Positions 7,040 through 49,364 of a stretch of 64,000 nt of DNA are shown here, piece by piece; position 1 is the first letter of the stretch, and each line of letters opens with the position of its first letter. The stretch spans positions 129,068,105 to 129,132,104 of the forward strand of contig NC_134572.1 of the NCBI RefSeq assembly GCF_050947875.1, written 5' to 3'. Below the pieces are notes generated by a model. That model did not search any database. It saw only the letters and a list, made by a program, of their open reading frames with translations, and had not been told where the DNA came from. This DNA comes from Dermacentor variabilis. Taxonomy: Eukaryota; Arthropoda; Arachnida; Ixodida; Ixodidae. The position numbers and the translations under genes were made by a program.

Positions 7040-7800
7040 TTTATCAATTCCTGCTGCTTGTGAATCGCCACACTGGTGGAGGCGCTAGGTAAATGTTTGG
7101 GACGCCTGTCAACAGCCCCACATGAAGCCCAGGTTGTTTTCCTCGGGTCGAAACACCCATTCACCGCGCCAGCCATCACCTACTAGGCCTAAGCCCAGAA
7201 TTTGGTCCCCTACCAGGAAGTCTACCTGTTACCACGAGTGCCCAAGCCATGGCAGACCCAGGCCCTGCACAGGTGACTCTTCCGACTCCTCGATCTCCCG
7301 TGAGCTTCCACGGCAATGCCTACGAGGATGCAGAAGGCTGGCTCGAGGAATACGAGCGCGAAGTCAAGTATAATGAGTGGCATGGTGGACAGAAGCTATC
7401 CCATGTGTATTTCTCTCTTGAAGACGGAGCCCGCATGTGGTTCGTAAATCGCGAGGGAATCTGGCCAAGCTGGGATGAGTTCCGCCATACGTTCGGGAGC
7501 ACCGAAAGGCGAAACCACGCGCAGCGTCTTCTCGAATCGCGGATTCAAAAGCCGAATGAAACTGTTGCCATGTTCGCTGAGGACACAGCTCGTCTTTGTC
7601 GTCGTGGAGGCCCCGATATGCCCGAGGCAAAAAAAATTCAGCCACCTCATGCGCGGCGTAAAGGAGCAGCTGTTTGTGGGTCTTGTGCGGAACCCGCCGA
7701 CGAGCGTCGATGAATTTATGACAGAATAAACGGCCATAGAGTGCGCGTCACACCTACGCAGCCACCAGTATGTTCACCTGACCAGCACTAGACCGGCAAG
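7040..7800 (+). pseudogene. LTR-retrotransposon gag fragment
   Basis: The frame starts with ATG at 7249 and encodes a retrotransposon-gag-type domain: SFHGNAYEDAEGWLEEYER, then KLSHVYFSLEDGARMWF, then WDEFRHTFGS, then RIQKPNETVAMFAED. At the A-run near 7628 the reading shifts frame and continues as KKFSHLMRGVKEQLFVGL to a TAA at 7727-7729, where relatives continue. The upstream 7040-7248 resembles the leader of tick gypsy-type elements. No protease, RT or LTR is found here, so this is a truncated, frameshifted relic inside M13 intron 2. Confidence 0.75.
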
Positions 7801-14904: not shown

Positions 14905-15135
14905 CATATAGGAGGTTGTGGCCAAGTACTGCACCAGGGTGGCCAATCCTTCTCTGGTGAGGGAGTGCGTTACCGGTTCTGGTCACCGGGATCAGGCCAC
15001 ACTGCAGGCCTGTTTATGCAATTTTATCAACACGCGAATTTTTAAATCCGGTGGAAAACTACGCGGCACCGGGATTCGAACCACGGACCTCCTGCACGCG
15101 AGGCGGGTGTTCTACCTCTAAGCCACCGCTGCACT
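14905..15135 (-). mobile_element. tRNA-Gly-like headed SINE (third family)
   Basis: On the minus strand the element starts near 15131 with a tRNA-like head. It has an A box (ggtggcttagaggtagaac) and a B box (ggttcgaatcccggtgccgc), an arrangement closest to tRNA-Gly. A non-tRNA body follows (aaattcgcgtgttgataaa, cctgatcccggtgaccaga, ctgcaccaggg reverse-complemented) and ends near 14905 with 'cctcctatatgaac'. A tail-only relic of the same family occurs at 39560-39640. It is a retroelement, not a functional tRNA, because the head lacks a plausible intact acceptor stem. Confidence 0.75.
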
Positions 15136-21484: not shown

Positions 21485-24400
21485 CACCACACGCAGCGCG
21501 CCCGAATACCTCGATATCTGGCAGTGGAATTGTCGCTTTTTCAACAAGAAGGCAAGTGCACTCCAACTCTTCATCCAAAATCACCTATACTTCAAAATCA
21601 CCCCCCCCCCCCGACTTCATCTGCCTTCAGGAGGTCGGGGACCAGCTGATCAGGCTACGGGGTTACTACGTAATTAATTACGCGGGATCACCGAAGGACG
21701 CGGTTTTAGTTCACAAAACGGTGACGGCCGTGGGACAACATTCTCAACATCAGGACATTAATCACGTGCTAGTGGAAGTCCTCCCGCAGAAGAGGGGTAG
21801 ACGTAGCACCTTCATCCTGAATTTGTACAGTCCGCCGAGGGCTCAGCAAGACGACTTCCGCAACATCATTTACGACAGCGTAAGAGCCGCTGGCTGCAAC
21901 CAGCTGGTAGTGATGGGAGACATGAACGTTAGACACACGACTTGGGGCTACCAACAAGACACGTAAAGAGGGAGGGCGCTCCTCGATGCGGTTGACCAAA
22001 TGGGCCTCGAATATATAACCAACCTCCTCCAACCTACCCGAGTAGGCAACCGTGTAAGTCGAAACATGTTTCCGGACCTGTCATTTGTCAAAAACGTAAG
22101 GGAATACTCATAGGCGCACCTGGGCGAAACTTTGGGCAGCGATCACTACATCCTCAGAATTTCGGTATCCACGCCGAAACCCCCCACCCGAAAACGGTAT
22201 AACGGACATAGCAGAATGCATGCAGCACCTTCGCGACGCCAACATCCAAACCACTAAAACAATCCAGCGCACGGTCGAGACGCCCGAAGTCGACCGCCGG
22301 CTCTTACACCTGTGGGAAGCCCGTGAGGGCCTCCTCAAACGGTGGTAGCGACAGCGGTTAAACCGGAAACTACGTCTACGAATCGAGAAAATAACAGACG
22401 AAGCCAGAAATTACGCAAACGAGCTCACGCAGCAAATTTGGGTACAGTTTCGAACCTCGCTCAAGGGTACCCTGAGTACGGCGCAGACGTGGGCCATCCT
22501 ACGTTGCCTGATCGAGCCTGACAAGGCGAAATCGACAACCAGTCGGACGCTTCTAGAAATCGCTCACAATTTCCCCGGAAACGACCAGGATCTGATTAAC
22601 ACCCTAAAAACCAGGTACCAGGGTAGCGACCCCATACGACCCTGCCTCCTAAAATACGAAGCAGAAGCAAGACCAGAACTGGACGCTCCCATCACGGAGG
22701 AAGAGGTGTATGCCGCGGCACGAGCCTCACAGCGCAACACTGCTCCCGGAGTTGACAAAATCACCAATGTCATGATTAGAAGCCTGAGCCCAATGCACAT
22801 CCAGGACTTGACCGAATGCCTGAACGGGGAACTCTGGAGCAAGGGCCACGTACCAAACGAGTGGAAACACGCGGAAATCGTGGCCATTCCCAAACCCGGC
22901 AAGAAGCCCGCGATCGACGCCCTGCGTCCCATCTCGCTGACTTCGTGCCTCGGCAAGCTGTACGAGAGGGTCATCGAAACTCGCCTCCAACATTACATAG
23001 AGGACGGTGACCTCTTCCCGCACACCATGCTTGGCTTCAGGCCGGAACATTCTGCGCACGATGCGTTCCTAATCCTAAGGGAAGTTCTCAAGGGCATCCT
23101 GAAGGGAGGAGAACACCTCCTGCTCGCACTCGACCTAAAAGGGGCATCTCTCACGAGGCCATTCACAAGGAACTGAACGACATCAGCTGCGGGGAGCGCA
23201 TCTTTAATTACGTTAAATCGTTCCTGACGGGCCGGACGGCAACCATCGGAATAGGCCAGACTCGATCGGGTACGATCGACGGGCCGATCAAAGGAACACC
23301 GCAAGGGGCGATAGACTCCCCGATTCTCTTCAACGTCGCAATGCTAGCACTGACCAAAGAGCTGCGGAAGATCCCCGACCTAGGTTACGCCCTGTACGCA
23401 GACGACATCACTCTCTGGGCCACCAAGAGCTCCCTAGCGCGAGAAGAGGCGACCCTTCAAGAGGCCGCAACGGCCGTGGAGAGATTTGCGGCACCGAGCG
23501 GGATGCGTTGCGCGCCCGAGAAGTCCGAGGTGATCCGGGTGCACGGAGGAGGAATCTACAAATCCCACGGCCCTATCGACCTATATCTTGAGGGCCAGAA
23601 ATCACGGAATGCGATAAGACTAGGATTCTGGGTTTTTGGATCTAGAGCAACCTGGAAGCCTCCCACACCATCCAAACCCTAAGGTCTGCCACCAACCAGG
23701 TCTCGCGGATTATCAAACGAATTACAAGAAGCCGCAAGGGCATGCGAGAAGAGGAAACGTTTTGCCTCGTCCAGGATCTGGTGATCAGCAGAATAAAGTA
23801 TAGCATGCCGTGTCACTACCACTCGCTAAACAAACGCGACCAAGAACAAGTCGATGCCATCATCAGAGGCGCGTACAAAACGGCCCTGGGTCTCCCTGTC
23901 ACCACCTCAAACGAGAAGTTAGCGGCCATCGGGATCCACAACACCTTCGCTGAGCTGTCGGACGCGGTTCTTGCCTTGCAAAAGGCCAGACTACAGAACA
24001 CGGCGGCGGGCAGAGCCATACTCCACCGGACCGGAACGGCAACGGAGCTCCGTGCCCTCGATGGGCAAAGATCACTCCCGTCTGAAGTCAGAGGCAAGAT
24101 CAAGGCGAACCCGATACCGAAGCACATGAGTCATGAACTCCATGAAGGACGACGCAAGGCTCGCGTCGACAGACAGCACCGACAATTCAAGGGTGACCCG
24201 TACGTAACGTACGTGGACGTGGCAACGTACCCTGTAGGGGGCCTCTTCGCGGTAGCCGCCGTGAACTGGAGAGACAACTCCTTGACTTTCGCGGCCTCCG
24301 TAAGGGCAGAGACCCCAACGGCGGCTGAGACCATAGCCGTGGCGCAGGTAATAAAGCAAGAAGACAGGGTAAGCAGGGAAGTTCATGTCGTTACCGACTC

Positions 24401-24993
24401 GCAACAGGCCTGCCGTAACTTTACCAACGGATGAACACCGCTGCTGGCGGCTCAGATTCTAGGCCCGAGGCTGCAAGAATACCATCAGATCACGTGGACG
24501 CCAGGCCACGCGGGTCTGGAGGGGAACGAAAGGGCGAACGCCCTAGCTCGAGCGCTAATCAATCGAGCGGGGCAAGACCAATCGTCTCATCAGACCCCAC
24601 CCTTTACCTTCATGCCCCTGCCGTCCAATTACTGCGACTGACTCGAGATCCAGCGACTCAACCACAGGATTTATCCTCCGCCTCACAGAAAGATCAGCAC
24701 TGAAGATGCAGTAGCTCTCCGACTTATTCAGACCAACACATTTCCAAACCTACACAGATACAGTAAAATGCTCCCACATACATATCGCGGCATCTGCCCC
24801 TAGGTGCGGCGACGCACGCCCTACACTCTTTCCCATCTCGTGGGAGTGCGGGGGCAAACCTCAACGCTTAAACACGCCTAGCACGTCATTTGAGCGGTGG
24901 GAGGTACAGCTGACCGGCGATACCCTGATGGGACAAGAAGCTCTCCTCTAGCAAGTACGTCGAGCAGCCATGGCCAGTGGAGTCCTGGAATGA
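21477..24993 (+). pseudogene. LINE ORF2 (endonuclease-RT-RNase H), multiply broken
   Basis: ATG at 21477 overlaps the ORF1 stop by eight bases. Endonuclease segments are IWQWNCRFFN, DFICLQEV and VVMGDMNVRHTTWG, with a C-run frameshift near 21600 and TAA at 21964. RT segments are NTAPGVDKITNVMIR, AIPKPGKKP, DALRPISLTSCLGKLYE and YADD (about 23395-23406). A small deletion near 23142 removes the residues after DLKGA. RNase H segments are YVDVATYP, AETIAVAQ and VTDSQQACRNF (then TGA at 24432), followed by WTPGHAGLEGNERANALAR. The ORF ends VLE-stop at 24991-24993. It is non-functional. Confidence 0.87.
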
Positions 24994-41831: not shown

Positions 41832-42514
41832 CTCCGAGTTTAGGTACGGTGACGCTTAAAGACTCCTCAGAAACTTCATCAGACTCATCAGCACACCCGG
41901 CTAGATGCTATGTTCGTTTGTGCGCGGAACGCTTCGGAGAAATGCAATCGCGACGCGCGAGCGTGCATGTCACGTGGTGTTTTTTTGTTTTTCGCGGGCA
42001 TCCGCAGTAAGCTGAAGAACACTAATGCTTAATAAATAGAAAGTTAGAATCTGTCTAATCGGACGTCTTGCAAAATGGTCTACAACGTTCTAATTGGAAT
42101 GTTTTGCCTAGCTTCGTTACTTCAGAAGTTTGTTAATTAACCTTGACTAATTATCTAATTAAGCAAAATTTAAAAAATACCGACACCCCCTACATGAAAA
42201 AGTGAGCAACATGCATCTAGTCGCGTCGTCTTAGAGTGAATCGGCATATTTTTACACTCTGGCTAAAGTTAGCTGAAACACTTTGTACATACTATACGCA
42301 CTGCCTAACCCGCCCAGGGTTAAACATACATAGACAACATATCTCTTGCATTTTAACAAACCATGGAGCGCAAGCCTTGAGAATTATTTCACGTTAGAAA
42401 AAGAAGGCGACTATTGCATCAGTCAGCCTTCCGCAAGCTTGTCTTTCTTTGGGTGCCTGCATTCTCTTTTTGGCGTTTTTTTATTTATTTCTCGGTGCAG
42501 TCTGTTTCTACCAG

Positions 42515-43274
42515 TGTTTGGATCGGACTGCTGGTACGATCTGTTGTTGGGAACTCGGCGCTGACGCCCGTGGTTGTACCTGGGTCGCAAGCCCCAAGGG
42601 TAGCGTTGGCCTGGCGGCCTGGGGTACAACTGGAAGCATCCGAAGGTCCCGGCAAAGCATGAGTCGACTGGTAACAACAAAACAACTTGTTTATTTTAAC
42701 ATCGCAAAGAGTTGGCGGTCAGGTTTGACCGAAGTAGAGAGACGGGAGAGCACTTTACTCAACAGAAGAAATCGGAGCCCTCTTTTTGGCGTCCGGGGGC
42801 AGCTGTTTTTATACTCTCGCAGTTGAGGGCAAGAAGGAACCCCTCAAAAGACGAGCACGTGAATGTACAATGGGCTAATGGTGACGCACACTGTCGTAGC
42901 GATGCCGTAGCACCATGTCGAGCACGATCTCGTAGCACCCTGTCGTGGCGCTGCCGGTCGGACACAATGACTGTAATGAGAGGATGGTCCCTGCTTTGGC
43001 ATCGCCTGTTTCGGGCACAATGACTGGAATGAGATCCCTGCTTTGGCATCGCCTGTTTCGGCCACAATGACTGGAATGAGATCCCTACTTTGGCATCGCC
43101 TGTTTCGGGCACAATGACTGGAATGCGAGGATGATCCCTAGGCGGTCGCATCGCCGCAGTCGCGCCTGGAAACACCTGGCGATGAGTGTTGCGGCGACGA
43201 CGATCGGGCCAAAATGTCTGCCGCCCCGCCGCAGTCGCGCCGGCAAAACCACGTCTCGCAGGCGAAACGCAACA
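42515..43274 (-). repeat. 3' LTR of the Gmr1-like element
   Basis: 760 bp, TGTT...AACA ends. It contains three to four tandem copies of a 47-bp unit starting cacaatgactggaatgagat (about 42964-43130), with the first copy a few bases longer. The element sense strand is minus. The purine-rich tract expected just upstream (43275-43300 on the minus strand) reads ggcggggcgg followed by tc. Confidence 0.93.
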
Positions 43275-43758
43275 GACCGCCCCGCCGGGGGAAGGAGATC
43301 CCGATGGACAGGGGACTGCATCCGCTGTCCGGAGGGATGTCGCTCGATGATGCTCATAACCGAAGTCGGGCGTCCCTCGACGTTTCTTGAGCGCAGCGCA
43401 CAGAGAAGGCCTCGTTCTCTTGTTCAGGTTCGCACGGGACACTGCAAAGTGACTTCGGGAGAGTTCACATTTTTGTTCTCGTTCCCGGCAAGCGTTAGAA
43501 CCACGCTGAAACTCAACCGCTCAGTCAGCAAGCACGGCACAACCCTCACTAAGCCCTGCCAGGCTCTTTCCCCTTTTTATACCACTGCCTAGTTCCTTAC
43601 AGTAGTCTAGCATCACTCAGAACGCGTCCACAAATTGAAAAATTGCACTAGAAAGCATATCATCACTTTGAAACACTAAACAAAAGCAATATGTTAAAAA
43701 AATCCTGCCTCAGGAAAAAAAACATCAGTAACAAACAATTTTGAGGCTGATTCCTACG

Positions 43759-46700
43759 TTAGGGGCTTCGACTCAAGCCATCGGCGTTACCGTTGAGACT
43801 CCCCTTTTTGTAACGCACCTCAAAGGAATATTGTTGTAAAGCGAGGCTCCAGCGCAGGAGGCGGCCATTTTTGGGAGAGATGGTCTGCAGCCATTGGAGA
43901 GGGCAGTGATCCGTCTCAATGATAAACCTCGAGCCGGCTAGATAGCATGACAATTTCTGAACGGCCCACACGAGACACGCACACTCTTTCTCGGTGGCGC
44001 TATACGCCTGCTCACGACTGGTCAGCTTACGACTAGCATACAGGACGGGGTGTTCTACTTCTCCATTTTCCCGTTGGCACAGTACAACGCCCATGCCTCG
44101 CTCACTAGCATCGCACTGAACAATGAACCCTTTTGTATAGTCTGGCGATCGTAGCACAGGCTGGCTTGTTAGGGCACTCTTTAGGGCGCTAAAAGCTCTT
44201 TCCTTTGTCTCGTCCCAGACGACTGTTTGAGGCTCTGTCTTTCTTAGAGCATCCGTCAGGGGAGCCGCGATATCAGAGTACCTAGGGATGTACCTCTGAT
44301 AGTAGCCGGCGACACCTAAGAACGACCGAATATCGGTCTTTGTGCGCGGTTGCGGAAAGTCTCGCACAGCGGCCACTTTTATTTCAGAGGGGCGGCGACG
44401 ACCCTGACCAATCACGTGACCGAGGTAGACAACCTCGGCCTGTGCTAACTGGCACTTAGGAGCCTTTACTGTCAAGCCTGCTTCGCGCAGGCGGGTTAGC
44501 ACTGCCCGCAAGTGTGTCATATGCTCAGACCAGGATGCGGAGAATATCGCTACGTCGTCTAGATACGGTAAAGCGAATTCTTGCTGTCCCCGCAACACTT
44601 TATCCATGAGACTTGAAAAACAGTATGGCGCGTTCTTCAAACCAAAACTCAACACTTTAGGACGGAATGTTCCCATTGGTGAAATGAACGCCGCATACCT
44701 ACTAGCCTCTTCTGTAAGTGGAACCTGCCAATAACCCCTGACAAGATCTAGGGTGGAAATAAACTGAGCGCTACTAACTTTCTCAAGGCGCTCCTCGATG
44801 TTAGGGATCGGATAAATTTGATCCTTAGTGATGGAATTAAGCCTGCGGTAGTCGACGCAAGGACGAGGTTCCTTGCCCGGTACCTCAACTAAAATCAAAG
44901 GGGAGGTATAATCGCTCTCACCTGCCTCAATAACACCGAGCTGTAGCATTTTCTTTACCTCAGCCTCCATAATATCGCTCTGGCGGGGTGACACCCGATA
45001 CGCCTTGGATCGTACTGGCTCTGGGGAGGTAAGTTCTATATCATGAGTAAGTACCGAAGTCCTACCAGGCCTCTCAGAGAACAGACCTTGAAACTCTTGT
45101 AATAGCTGGTGTAGTTCGGTTTTCTGCTCAGGCGACAGCGGTGCTTTACTGATAAGGTCACTAATGACTTGACCGGTGTCTTCCCTGTTCGTCACTGAGC
45201 CTAGTCCCGGAAGCTCGACCGGAAGCTCTTCAGGAACGTTTACCATCATGCACACCACTGCTTCCCTTTGTCTATAAGGTTTGAGCAGATTACAGTGGTA
45301 AACTTGCTGTGCTTTCCGCTTTCCTGGCAGACTTACCACGTAGTTAACGTCCGACAGTTTCTGAACAATTCGTGCTGGGCCCTCCCACTGCACGTCTAGT
45401 TTGTTGTTTAGCGATGTGCGCAATATCATGACCTCATCGCCAACCTCAAAACGACGGGCCCTGGCTGTCCGATCATAATAAACCTTGGCCCTCTGCTGGG
45501 CCTTTGTCATTGCTTCACCTGACAACTCCTGTGCCCTTCTTAAGCGTTCGAGGAGCTTAAGCACGTACTCCACCACGCCCCTACCTTCCCACGATTCTCG
45601 AAGCATGCGAAGCGGAGATCGAAGCGAGCGACCGTACACCAGTTCAGCTGGCGAAAACCCCGTAGCCGCATGCGGCGCGGTCCTTAAAGCAAACATCACC
45701 CCAGGCAGACACAGCTCCCAGTCAGTTCGATGTTCAAAACACAAGGCTCTCAACACGCGCTTCATGACGGAGTGGAGCTTCTCAACGGAATTCGACTGTG
45801 GGTGGTACACTGAGCTGTGTAACAGCTTTACCCCACACCTTTCGAGAAAAGTTGTCGTCAAAGCGCTAGTAAACACTGTGCCCTGATCTGATTGGATTTC
45901 CGCAGGGAAACCAACTCGCGCAAATATGGATAGTAGTGCATTAACTATCTCAACTGAGCTGAGTTCTTTAAGCGGCACTGCTTCAGGGAACTTTGTCGCT
46001 GGGCAGATCACAGTCAAAATGTGTCTGTACCCCGTGGCTGTTACCGGCAGAGGTCCCACAGTATCAATAACGAGCCGTCTAAAAGGCTCCGTAATGATAG
46101 GTACCAATTTCAACGGCGCCCTCGATTTGTCCCCTGGTTTGCCCACCCGCTGACAAGTGTCACATGTCCTCACGAAATGGTCTGCGTCCCGAAAACACCC
46201 TGGCCAATAGTACTCTTGCAAGAGACGGTCCTTAGTTTTCTTAACTCCTAGGTGTCCGGACCACGAACCCCCATGCGACAAGCGCAACAGATCCTGACGA
46301 TAGCATTGAGGCACGATCAGCTGATCGAACTCCACTCCTCTTCGGTCTAGATACTTCCGGTACAGGACTCCACCTCTTTCCACAAAACGCGCAGTTTTCC
46401 TGGCGATACCTTCTTTGACATTGCAGCGCACGTTTTCCAGGCTGCCATCCTTTTTTTGCTCGGCTATCAAAGCCGACCGGCTGACTTTTAGCAACCTATC
46501 AAGTCCGTCTGACGTAGGCGCGATGAGCAAATCAGTAGATAGCTCTTCTAACTTTCCCGAATCGGGATTTTCCTCTCCAGTATCTGGCGCCTTCAACGCT
46601 ACAGACTCAATTTTATTCAGTTCGGGCGTGCTCGGAATATCAGCTTGCTGCGCCTCTGACCCTTTTTCGTTGTTTGATAACGTTGGCCCCGCAACTACCG

Positions 46701-48246
46701 CCTTTGCAGCGAGCTCCCGAACCTTCGATCTGGTTAAGGCCTGAACACTAGCTTCACCAAACAAAAGCCCCTTCTCGCGCAGGAGGTGATCGGACCTGTT
46801 TGAAAATAGGTACGGGTACTGGGGTGGCAGCATAGATGACACTGCCGCCTCCGTCTCAAGCGCTCCGAAAGGTCCTTCAATAAGCACCTTTGCTACTGGC
46901 AGACACACGCTATGAGCTTCCACGGCTTGCTTGATCCACGCGCACTCGCCCGTGAACATATGGGGTTCTACGTAAGATGGGTGAACTACATCCATCGTAG
47001 CTGCGGAATCGCGAAGCACTCGGCACTCTTTCCCGTTCACGAGGAGGTCTCGCATGTAAGGCTCGAGAAGCTTCATGTTCTCGTCAGTGCTGCCTATTGA
47101 AAAAAACACAACTTTTAGTGTTGTTTCCGGACACTGCGCCGAAAAGTGACCCGGCTTCTGGCACGTATAACAAACGCCCGCTCGCCTCATCTCGAACCGC
47201 TTTCTGCGTTCGGCTTCGGCTGCCGCCGTCTCCTTAGGTTCGGTCGCACTGTTTCCACTCGCATCCGCACTACGCGTGTTCCCCTTTGCTCTCATGGGTG
47301 TGAACTTCGGCCTCTCAAACTTCGAGCCAAATTCACCCTTTTGACCGTCCTTAGCTCCGCGAGCTCGACGCGTCACAAACTCCTCGGCTAGCTCAGCGGC
47401 TCTAGCCACCGTACTCACGTCTGGCCTATCCAAGACCCAGTATCGCACGTTCTCAGGTAACCGACTATAAAACTGTTCTAGCCCGAAACACTGCAGAACT
47501 TTATCGTGGTCACCAAACGCTTTCTCTTCTTTGAGCCACTCCTGCATGTTCGACATAAGCCTATACGCAAACTCTGTATATGACTCACTTCTGCCTTTCT
47601 CATTTTCCCGAAACTTCCGACGGAACGCCTCCGCAGACAGCCGGTACTTTTTTAGAAGACTCGATTTCACTGTGTCGAAATCCTCTGCCTCCTCTCTATC
47701 CAAGCGAGCGACTACGTCGGCCGCCTCGCCGGGTAACAAAGTGAGCAAGCGCTGTGGCCACGTTTCCCGAGAGAACCCCTGCTTCTCGCACGTTCGCTCA
47801 AAGTTAACCAGGAACAAACCAATGTCCTCTCCAAGCTTAAACGGCCGCATCAGGTCAGTCATTTTGAACAATACTCGTTCTCCTGCACCGTGTGCCTGAC
47901 TTCCATTACGAGCGCGTTCCATCTCTACCTCAAGACGCTTCATTTCCAAAGCGTGTTGACGGTCACGCTCTTCTTTTTCTTTCTGCTCTTTAAGTTCGCG
48001 CTCCTGTTTCTCTTTTTGGTCTTTAAGTTCGCGCTCATATTTCTCTTTTTGCTCTTTAAGTTCGCGCTCCTGTCTTTTTGACCTCTCCTCAATAGTCTCA
48101 AGGCATTCCGACAGCTCGTCATCCTCAGCCTCTAACTCAAGAATAGCCTTTAGCAGTTCTGGTTTTCTGAGTTTGTCCGAGACATCCAGACCCAACTCTC
48201 TTGCAAGCTCCAACAATTTCGGTTTGCGCAACGACTTCAAATCCAT
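43759..48246 (-). CDS. Gag-Pol polyprotein, 1495 aa, integrase upstream of RT
   Basis: Residue positions are counted directly. A SAP-like N-terminus (1-40) repeats LRKPxLLxxA. A charged coiled coil with ERELKEQKEK repeats covers about 50-110, and a gag domain about 125-300. A CCHC knuckle follows (C359, C362, H367, C372). A protease-like region has RDSAAT at 412-417 instead of D(S/T)G. Integrase has its zinc site (H658, H665, C695, C698), DDE core (D728, D787, E822, D35E spacing) and a GPY/F-like segment near 956. RT has STLDLVRGY (D1167) and YLDD at 1228-1231. RNase H has D1379, E1419, D1446 and D1489, then the ORF stops. Canonical Ty3/gypsy has RT-RH before integrase. Confidence 0.95.
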   Translation of the reverse strand: MDLKSLRKPKLLELARELGLDVSDKLRKPELLKAILELEAEDDELSECLETIEERSKRQERELKEQKEKYERELKDQKEKQERELKEQKEKEERDRQHALEMKRLEVEMERARNGSQAHGAGERVLFKMTDLMRPFKLGEDIGLFLVNFERTCEKQGFSRETWPQRLLTLLPGEAADVVARLDREEAEDFDTVKSSLLKKYRLSAEAFRRKFRENEKGRSESYTEFAYRLMSNMQEWLKEEKAFGDHDKVLQCFGLEQFYSRLPENVRYWVLDRPDVSTVARAAELAEEFVTRRARGAKDGQKGEFGSKFERPKFTPMRAKGNTRSADASGNSATEPKETAAAEAERRKRFEMRRAGVCYTCQKPGHFSAQCPETTLKVVFFSIGSTDENMKLLEPYMRDLLVNGKECRVLRDSAATMDVVHPSYVEPHMFTGECAWIKQAVEAHSVCLPVAKVLIEGPFGALETEAAVSSMLPPQYPYLFSNRSDHLLREKGLLFGEASVQALTRSKVRELAAKAVVAGPTLSNNEKGSEAQQADIPSTPELNKIESVALKAPDTGEENPDSGKLEELSTDLLIAPTSDGLDRLLKVSRSALIAEQKKDGSLENVRCNVKEGIARKTARFVERGGVLYRKYLDRRGVEFDQLIVPQCYRQDLLRLSHGGSWSGHLGVKKTKDRLLQEYYWPGCFRDADHFVRTCDTCQRVGKPGDKSRAPLKLVPIITEPFRRLVIDTVGPLPVTATGYRHILTVICPATKFPEAVPLKELSSVEIVNALLSIFARVGFPAEIQSDQGTVFTSALTTTFLERCGVKLLHSSVYHPQSNSVEKLHSVMKRVLRALCFEHRTDWELCLPGVMFALRTAPHAATGFSPAELVYGRSLRSPLRMLRESWEGRGVVEYVLKLLERLRRAQELSGEAMTKAQQRAKVYYDRTARARRFEVGDEVMILRTSLNNKLDVQWEGPARIVQKLSDVNYVVSLPGKRKAQQVYHCNLLKPYRQREAVVCMMVNVPEELPVELPGLGSVTNREDTGQVISDLISKAPLSPEQKTELHQLLQEFQGLFSERPGRTSVLTHDIELTSPEPVRSKAYRVSPRQSDIMEAEVKKMLQLGVIEAGESDYTSPLILVEVPGKEPRPCVDYRRLNSITKDQIYPIPNIEERLEKVSSAQFISTLDLVRGYWQVPLTEEASRYAAFISPMGTFRPKVLSFGLKNAPYCFSSLMDKVLRGQQEFALPYLDDVAIFSASWSEHMTHLRAVLTRLREAGLTVKAPKCQLAQAEVVYLGHVIGQGRRRPSEIKVAAVRDFPQPRTKTDIRSFLGVAGYYQRYIPRYSDIAAPLTDALRKTEPQTVVWDETKERAFSALKSALTSQPVLRSPDYTKGFIVQCDASERGMGVVLCQRENGEVEHPVLYASRKLTSREQAYSATEKECACLVWAVQKLSCYLAGSRFIIETDHCPLQWLQTISPKNGRLLRWSLALQQYSFEVRYKKGSLNGNADGLSRSP

Positions 48247-48600
48247 GGCTGCTCTGAATGCTGCTTTCTCTACTGCTTACTATTGTCTTGCCGCAAACTA
48301 ACCCGGCAGCAACGACAACCACAAATACCAGCTCTGTTTCTAACACTAACAAAAGCCTGGCAAAGCTCAGAAGAAGAAAGTCCCGCACTCACCAAACCTC
48401 GCAGGCAGGAATTCCGCGCAGTCGTTCCGCTGCAGGCAACCAGTCATCACACAGGGCTCGTTGCACTGCTCCCGGATCGTCGTTGAGCTGCTCAGCATAC
48501 AGTCAACTGCATCTCTTCGCTGCTGGCCTCCGTTGTCGCGATCTCTCCGCTGGCAGACAGTTGTTTGAAGTCGGAGGCGATCTCACCGCTGCCAACCAGA
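48247..48600 (-). other. 5' leader and primer-binding site of the Gmr1-like element
   Basis: 354 nt between the 5' LTR and the polyprotein ATG. Two bases after the LTR the minus strand reads TGGTTGGCAGCGGTGAGA (48598 to 48581). The TGG start and the position fit a tRNA primer-binding site. I cannot assign the tRNA by eye. Confidence 0.75.
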
Positions 48601-49360
48601 TGTTTGGATCGGACTGCTGGTACGATCTGTTGTTGGGAACTCGGCGCTGACGCCCGTGGTTGTACCTGGGTCGCAAGCCCCAAGGGTAGCGTTGGCCTGG
48701 CGGCCTGGGGTACAACTGGAAGCATCCGAAGGTCCCGGCAAAGCATGAGTCGACTGGTAACAACAAAACAACTTGTTTATTTTAACATCGCAAAGAGTTG
48801 GCGGTCAGGTTTGACCGAAGTAGAGAGACGGGAGAGCACTTTACTCAACAGAAGAAATCGGAGCCCTCTTTTTGGCGTCCGGGGGCAGCTGTTTTTATAC
48901 TCTCGCAGTTGAGGGCAAGAAGGAACCCCTCAAAAGACGAGCACGTGAATGTACAATGGGCTAATGGTGACGCACACTGTCGTAGCGATGCCGTAGCACC
49001 ATGTCGAGCACGATCTCGTAGCACCCTGTCGTGGCGCTGCCGGTCGGACACAATGACTGTAATGAGAGGATGGTCCCTGCTTTGGCATCGCCTGTTTCGG
49101 GCACAATGACTGGAATGAGATCCCTGCTTTGGCATCGCCTGTTTCGGCCACAATGACTGGAATGAGATCCCTACTTTGGCATCGCCTGTTTCGGGCACAA
49201 TGACTGGAATGCGAGGATGATCCCTAGGCGGTCGCATCGCCGCAGTCGCGCCTGGAAACACCTGGCGATGAGTGTTGCGGCGACGACGATCGGGCCAAAA
49301 TGTCTGCCGCCCCGCCGCAGTCGCGCCGGCAAAACCACGTGTCGCAGGCGAAACGCAACA
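48601..49360 (-). repeat. 5' LTR of the Gmr1-like element
   Basis: 760 bp, matching the 3' LTR at every position compared by eye except 49341. It should contain the element promoter. No TATA assignment is made. Confidence 0.93.
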
Positions 49361-49364
49361 CCAG

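Follow-up and report, generated by a model that had tools for sequence, protein, structure and literature searches.

Structure of the element

The stretch analyzed here (the window) comprises 64,000 nucleotides of the genome of the tick Dermacentor variabilis (NCBI RefSeq assembly GCF_050947875.1, contig NC_134572.1, positions 129,068,105 to 129,132,104; contig C5 in our numbering). Its minus strand carries, at 42515-49360, a long terminal repeat (LTR) retrotransposon in which integrase is encoded upstream of reverse transcriptase (RT). The two LTRs are each 760 bp long, start with TG and end with CA, and differ by one mismatch. Gag and pol form one frame of 1495 codons (43759-48246, minus strand), which encodes a SCAN-type capsid, a CCHC knuckle, a retropepsin-fold protease, integrase, Ty3/gypsy RT, and RNase H, followed by the stop codon. 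A preliminary description made from the letters alone had reported this gag-to-RNase H order, the single LTR mismatch, and a CCAG target duplication; the order is borne out by the frame and by Pfam, and the other two observations were confirmed. The features of the element, in window positions, are as follows.

42511 to 42514: target-site duplication CCAG, left
42515 to 43274, minus strand: 3' LTR, 760 bp
42988 to 43125: 47-bp minisatellite, 2.9 units, within the 3' LTR
43759 to 48246, minus strand: single gag-pol frame, 1495 amino acids
43828 to 44217, minus strand: RNase H, residues 1344-1473 (Pfam)
44410 to 44874, minus strand: reverse transcriptase RVT_1, residues 1125-1279, with YLDD (Pfam and alignment)
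45277 to 46314, minus strand: integrase, residues 645-990, with H2C2 zinc domain, DD35E core, and p58-type C-terminal domain
46747 to 47079, minus strand: aspartic protease, retropepsin fold, residues 390-500, with DSA at 413-415
47125 to 47175, minus strand: CCHC zinc knuckle, residues 358-374 (Pfam)
47365 to 47631, minus strand: SCAN-type capsid domain, residues 206-294 (PF02023)
47966 to 48073, minus strand: 33-bp in-frame repeat encoding charged gag repeats
48121 to 48243, minus strand: Rho_N-like N-terminal motif, residues 2-42, weak (below the Pfam cut-off)
48581 to 48598, minus strand: primer binding site, 2 nt inside the 5' LTR
48601 to 49360, minus strand: 5' LTR, 760 bp
49361 to 49364: target-site duplication CCAG, right

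The capsid match to PF02023 is strong (E value, 2.2e-13; 50.2 bits against a cut-off of 27), and Pfam resolves the integrase into a zinc domain (residues 645-702), a core (719-816), and a C-terminal domain (956-990). D728, D787, and E822 of integrase and the YLDD of RT, which the preliminary description had named, are present in the alignment, as are four acidic RNase H residues; we take all of them to be catalytic. The segment that had been called protease-like is an aspartic protease of the retropepsin fold. A start resembling the Rho_N-like N terminus of gag is visible by eye in some relatives.

Copia RTs have their own Pfam family, and no copia-type family is among the Pfam matches of the element, whose RT matches RVT_1 and RT_RNaseH instead; this sets it apart from Ty1/copia. 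Its RT-RNase H is of the Ty3/gypsy type, with yeast Ty3 as the best solved match in a comparison with PDB sequences, and both RT-RNase H and integrase are homologous to those of Ty3 (PDB 7q5b and 4ol8). The canonical Ty3/gypsy order, in which integrase follows RNase H, is reversed: residues 1066-1494 of the query (RT) correspond to 584-1009 of 7q5b_A, whereas residues 640-994 (integrase) correspond to 1086-1447.

The claim that nothing follows RNase H withstood a comparison of codon positions and frames in 24 loci. The last 400 pol codons have 11, 4, and 25 variable columns at codon positions 1, 2, and 3 and no gaps, and pol therefore looks maintained as a protein. The 3' untranslated part has 8, 12, and 8 variable columns; coding constraint is absent there, and no downstream gene was found. 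Specifically, no envelope gene was found after pol, which separates the element from errantiviruses and from retroviruses with env. A 227-codon frame at 42759-43442 (minus strand) was considered as a separate gene after RNase H and rejected, as the longest open frame differs between copies, and gaps of 1 or 2 bases and the lack of a third-position excess in the 24 loci speak against it as well.

Copies in the same genome

The searched genome amounts to 2.477 Gb. A protein search of it yielded 101305 first-look candidates, of which the best-scoring 31 were scored, so that the copy number is a lower bound biased to young copies. All 31 are full length and stop-free, with 99 to 100% protein identity. 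A search with the LTR instead gave 1140 candidates; the 40 that were scored all had 99 to 100% identity. We collected 28 loci, including the window (L001), and analyzed 27, leaving out L027, which comes from the interior of an array. Within these 27, LTR pairs differ by 0 to 11 aligned bases, with no difference in 8 loci and additional length differences in 10, and LTR length varies from 709 to 968 bp as aligned. The small number of LTR mismatches per copy and the open frames uphold the earlier proposal of a recent insertion.

Exact 4-bp target duplications were found by script at 20 of the 27 loci. Six of the remaining seven bound three tandem pairs or arrays with matching outer flanks (CTCC, GCCC, and GAAG). 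At L018, where one LTR end has diverged, reading by eye reveals CAGG on either side. A 4-bp duplication is thus present at 24/24 insertions analyzed (20 by script and 4 by eye). The largest array (contig C1:11791180-11826151; L026, L027, and L028) consists of six full-length open copies in tandem, spaced at 6095 bp, sharing LTRs and enclosed by a single outer duplication, CTCC; the two-unit arrays L005/L006 (GCCC) and L008/L009 (GAAG) resemble it. Such LTR-sharing units inside one target duplication are a less expected feature. Their simplest reading is unequal LTR recombination after a single insertion; the six-unit array may be an assembly artifact.

Distribution of the gene order

A protein search of about 5.8 billion sequences, in which 7992 candidates were scored, gave 156 matches, of which 120 were listed. 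Gene order was called from the positions of the window's own domain segments. Among the matches listed, integrase lies before RT in 104 and after RT in 5, and RT or integrase is missing in 11; the closest named protein is from Amblyomma americanum (93% identity over 95% of the query), and another protein of that species shows 98% identity over 33% of the query. The order was also looked for in other ticks, as the preliminary description had suggested, and it recurs in tick homologues, both hard and soft (Amblyomma, Haemaphysalis, Rhipicephalus, Ixodes, and Ornithodoros). In the databases, several such tick proteins carry only the label uncharacterized or hypothetical, and a Dermacentor protein fragment has no integrase match. 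Outside ticks, integrase-first proteins come from the spiders Argiope and Trichonephila, the beetle Onthophagus, the prawn Palaemon, sea turtles, alligator, and fishes, and probably from a sponge (EukProt Em0002g records, which from their prefix we take to be Ephydatia muelleri). A 6.4-kb contig attributed to the bacterium Breoghania sp. encodes an integrase-first Gmr1-type polyprotein (P0093); the contig is probably eukaryotic and mislabeled.

A second search, started from an RT-first relative, supplied a comparison set. Order could be measured in 225 of 239 proteins, the window included: 107 are integrase-first (106 from the first search plus the window) and 118 are RT-first. The capsid segment of the window matches 86 of the 107 integrase-first proteins (itself counted) and none of the 118 RT-first ones. 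P0222 of Maylandia zebra was rejected as an integrase-first protein: it reads RT-RNase H-integrase-RT-RNase H, has integrase-last best matches, and was therefore placed among the 118 RT-first proteins; it is absent from the trees. It probably represents two adjacent integrase-last elements joined in a single gene prediction.

Phylogeny of RT and integrase

From 176 proteins with near-complete domains, identity thinning left 48, to which 7 were added by hand (3 integrase-first and 4 RT-first), giving 55. One branch of the RT-RNase H tree splits 44 integrase-first rows from the 11 others (support, 99), and in the integrase tree a single branch likewise sets the integrase-first rows apart (99). 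Around the window, both trees group the same 19 rows (100 in each). When yeast Ty3 is added to the RT-RNase H tree, support for the integrase-first branch is 95/97. The two trees, which are unrooted, disagree on the deeper branching among integrase-first rows. Since the RT and integrase trees agree, the two domains share one history, and the gene order has been inherited. The preliminary description had named a placement of RT and integrase in different clades with a chimeric breakpoint unique to this assembly, or a misassembly, as grounds for abandoning its reading; with a narrow RT-first set, described below, the two histories agree, and the copies are many and independent.

Relationship to known elements and alternative explanations

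The Gmr1 clade of Ty3/gypsy elements was reportedly described by Goodwin and Poulter in 2002. Gmr1-like elements are defined as unconventional Gypsy elements with integrase upstream of RT (PMC3587641; also PMC8220671 and PMC6238403). Their gag has been linked to SCAN (PMC3424704 and PMC4131045), a domain found in over half of frog Gmr elements though not in all (PMC4131045), and the Gmr1 lineage is reported as the source of the vertebrate SCAN domain (PMC3424704). One study places a single Gmr1 family in an annelid (PMC8220671), and an analysis of polychaetes is without any Gmr1 element, yet lists Gmr1 among the clades of several phyla (PMC8556966). Gmr1-related elements of hydrothermal shrimps, a spider crab, and a prawn were presented in 2013 as the first in protostomes (PMC3587641). 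An arthropod occurrence is therefore less surprising than the preliminary description had implied.

Like the Gmr1 clade, the tick element combines a Ty3/gypsy RT, integrase upstream of RT, and a SCAN-type gag; its host is a tick, and its single gag-pol frame and altered protease signature may also set it apart. It shares an arthropod host and a position near the Gmr1 clade with the crustacean elements GyRex4, Gychoro2, GyMaja1, and GyLiva4; GyRex4 was identified from RT/RNase H domains only (PMC3587641), whereas the tick element has all its parts, LTRs and target duplication included. An account of Ixodes scapularis Ty3/gypsy elements (PMC4748124) covers the clades Mag and CsRn1 and the new clades Squirrel and Toxo, with 4-bp duplications, and its available portion makes no mention of Gmr1. 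These clades resemble the element in tick host, TG..CA LTRs, 4-bp duplication, and CCHC gag; they are described with two frames, gag and pol, where the window element has one.

Our conclusion is that, very probably, the window element inserted recently into the tick genome, is structurally intact, and belongs to the Gmr1 lineage of Ty3/gypsy (Metaviridae), as one of the earlier suggestions had it; the RT and integrase trees and the SCAN capsid support the lineage assignment. Several observations weigh against that conclusion. A single change of order is seen in 94% of 200 bootstrap trees with Ty3, not in all. The RT-first set consists of 5 first-search and 6 second-search proteins plus yeast Ty3 (in the RT tree only), and Ty3 is its sole labeled row, with no labeled mag, CsRn1, or Mdg1. 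Kinship to the type element, Gmr1 of Atlantic cod, is read indirectly, from the gene order, the SCAN-type gag, and the integrase-first relatives in vertebrates. The open frame in 31/31 copies concerns those chosen as best scoring. The protease of the window has DSA in place of DTG/DSG and LFSN in place of LLGxD, the primer site lacks an exact match to tRNA-Leu(AAG), and no clean polypurine tract was seen before the 3' LTR, where the upstream stretch is GC-rich and ends in GGCGGGGCGGTC.

The altered protease and the primer site could mean that the Gmr1-lineage element only looks complete and is no longer self-mobile, for instance with an inactive protease and proteins supplied in trans. We consider this unlikely. 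LFSN occurs in 5/5 tick rows (Amblyomma P0001, Haemaphysalis P0003, Ornithodoros P0022, Rhipicephalus P0031, and the window); DSA is found in three of these rows and DSG in the other two. The catalytic Asp is unchanged across the 30 rows compared, D[ST]A or D[ST]G was found in 81 of 86 rows, and the frame is open in the scored copies. The altered second signature shared by these five tick rows is a less expected feature. The departure of most primer sites from the tRNA match also favors loss of mobility. With CCA, which is usually added to tRNA 3' ends, included in the comparison, 3 of 28 pattern-found primer sites equal the 18-nt complement of the 3' end of tRNA-Leu(AAG), a gene of the same genome; 21 are of the window type, which departs from that match by an added base and a substitution, and 4 carry a variant related to it. 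The imperfect form is hence the commoner one. The same genome contains a tandem array of tRNA-Leu(AAG) genes (contig C3:79660681-79738433; locus L037) spaced at about 749 bp, with 13 genes called by ARAGORN in the first 10 kb and tens more by pattern.

Integrase could instead have come to precede RT when an ordinary Ty3/gypsy element was rearranged independently in ticks; the preliminary description had also offered an independent rearrangement, and our literature search found no paper joining Gmr1, tick, and retrotransposon. This origin is very improbable, because integrase-first homologues occur from ticks, spiders, beetle, and prawn to vertebrates and probably a sponge, are accompanied by a homologous capsid, and, as sampled, group together apart from integrase-last elements in both trees. 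Misassembly or a chimeric fusion of two elements would also produce an unusual order, and fusions do occur among predicted proteins (e.g., P0222). That explanation is the least credible, bordering on negligible: at least 31 copies at separate sites of the genome have the same frame, 4-bp duplications flank the LTRs, the order recurs in other sources, and the window frame has no second RT.

Other features of the window

At 22706-24434, a frame encoding part of a reverse transcriptase (RVT_1; E value, 7e-9) is followed by a weak RNase H-like frame; these are probably the remains of another retroelement. A 154-codon frame at 7249-7713 has a weak Retrotrans_gag match below the cut-off. The tRNA-Ala (cgc) called by ARAGORN at 15060-15134 (minus strand) may be a pseudogene or repeat derived.

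Replication and significance

If the tick element replicates as its Gmr1-lineage anatomy suggests, it would be transcribed from LTR to LTR, and the full-length RNA would be translated into a single Gag-Pol polyprotein. Particles would form around the RNA by means of the SCAN-type capsid and the CCHC knuckle, the aspartic protease would cleave the polyprotein, and RT and RNase H would copy the RNA from the tRNA-Leu-type primer site. Integrase, freed from a position ahead of RT and not from the C terminus, would then insert the DNA with a 4-bp target duplication. Expression, primer use, particle assembly, processing, and activity at present are inferred; what was observed directly is the anatomy, the conserved motifs, the target duplications, the near-identical copies, the third-position excess in pol, and the congruent RT and integrase histories.

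The element extends a known lineage to ticks and is not of a new kind. The Gmr1 lineage, published but thinly documented, gains a complete young tick element, and both trees show that the unusual gene order was inherited with the lineage and not re-evolved in the tick. Naming the uncharacterized and hypothetical tick entries aids annotation. Tentatively, and with somewhat less than even confidence, we propose a single origin for integrase-first Ty3/gypsy elements, as an ancient lineage found across animals (sponge, vertebrates, and arthropods), and a large radiation of that lineage in ticks that is still moving, in which the second retropepsin signature changed (LLGxD to LFSN, with DTG/DSG to DSA in part of the group) and copies grow in place into LTR-sharing tandem arrays. 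If this is true, the tick elements would be a practical system for studying integrase release from the middle of a polyprotein and the balance of Gag and Pol from a single frame.

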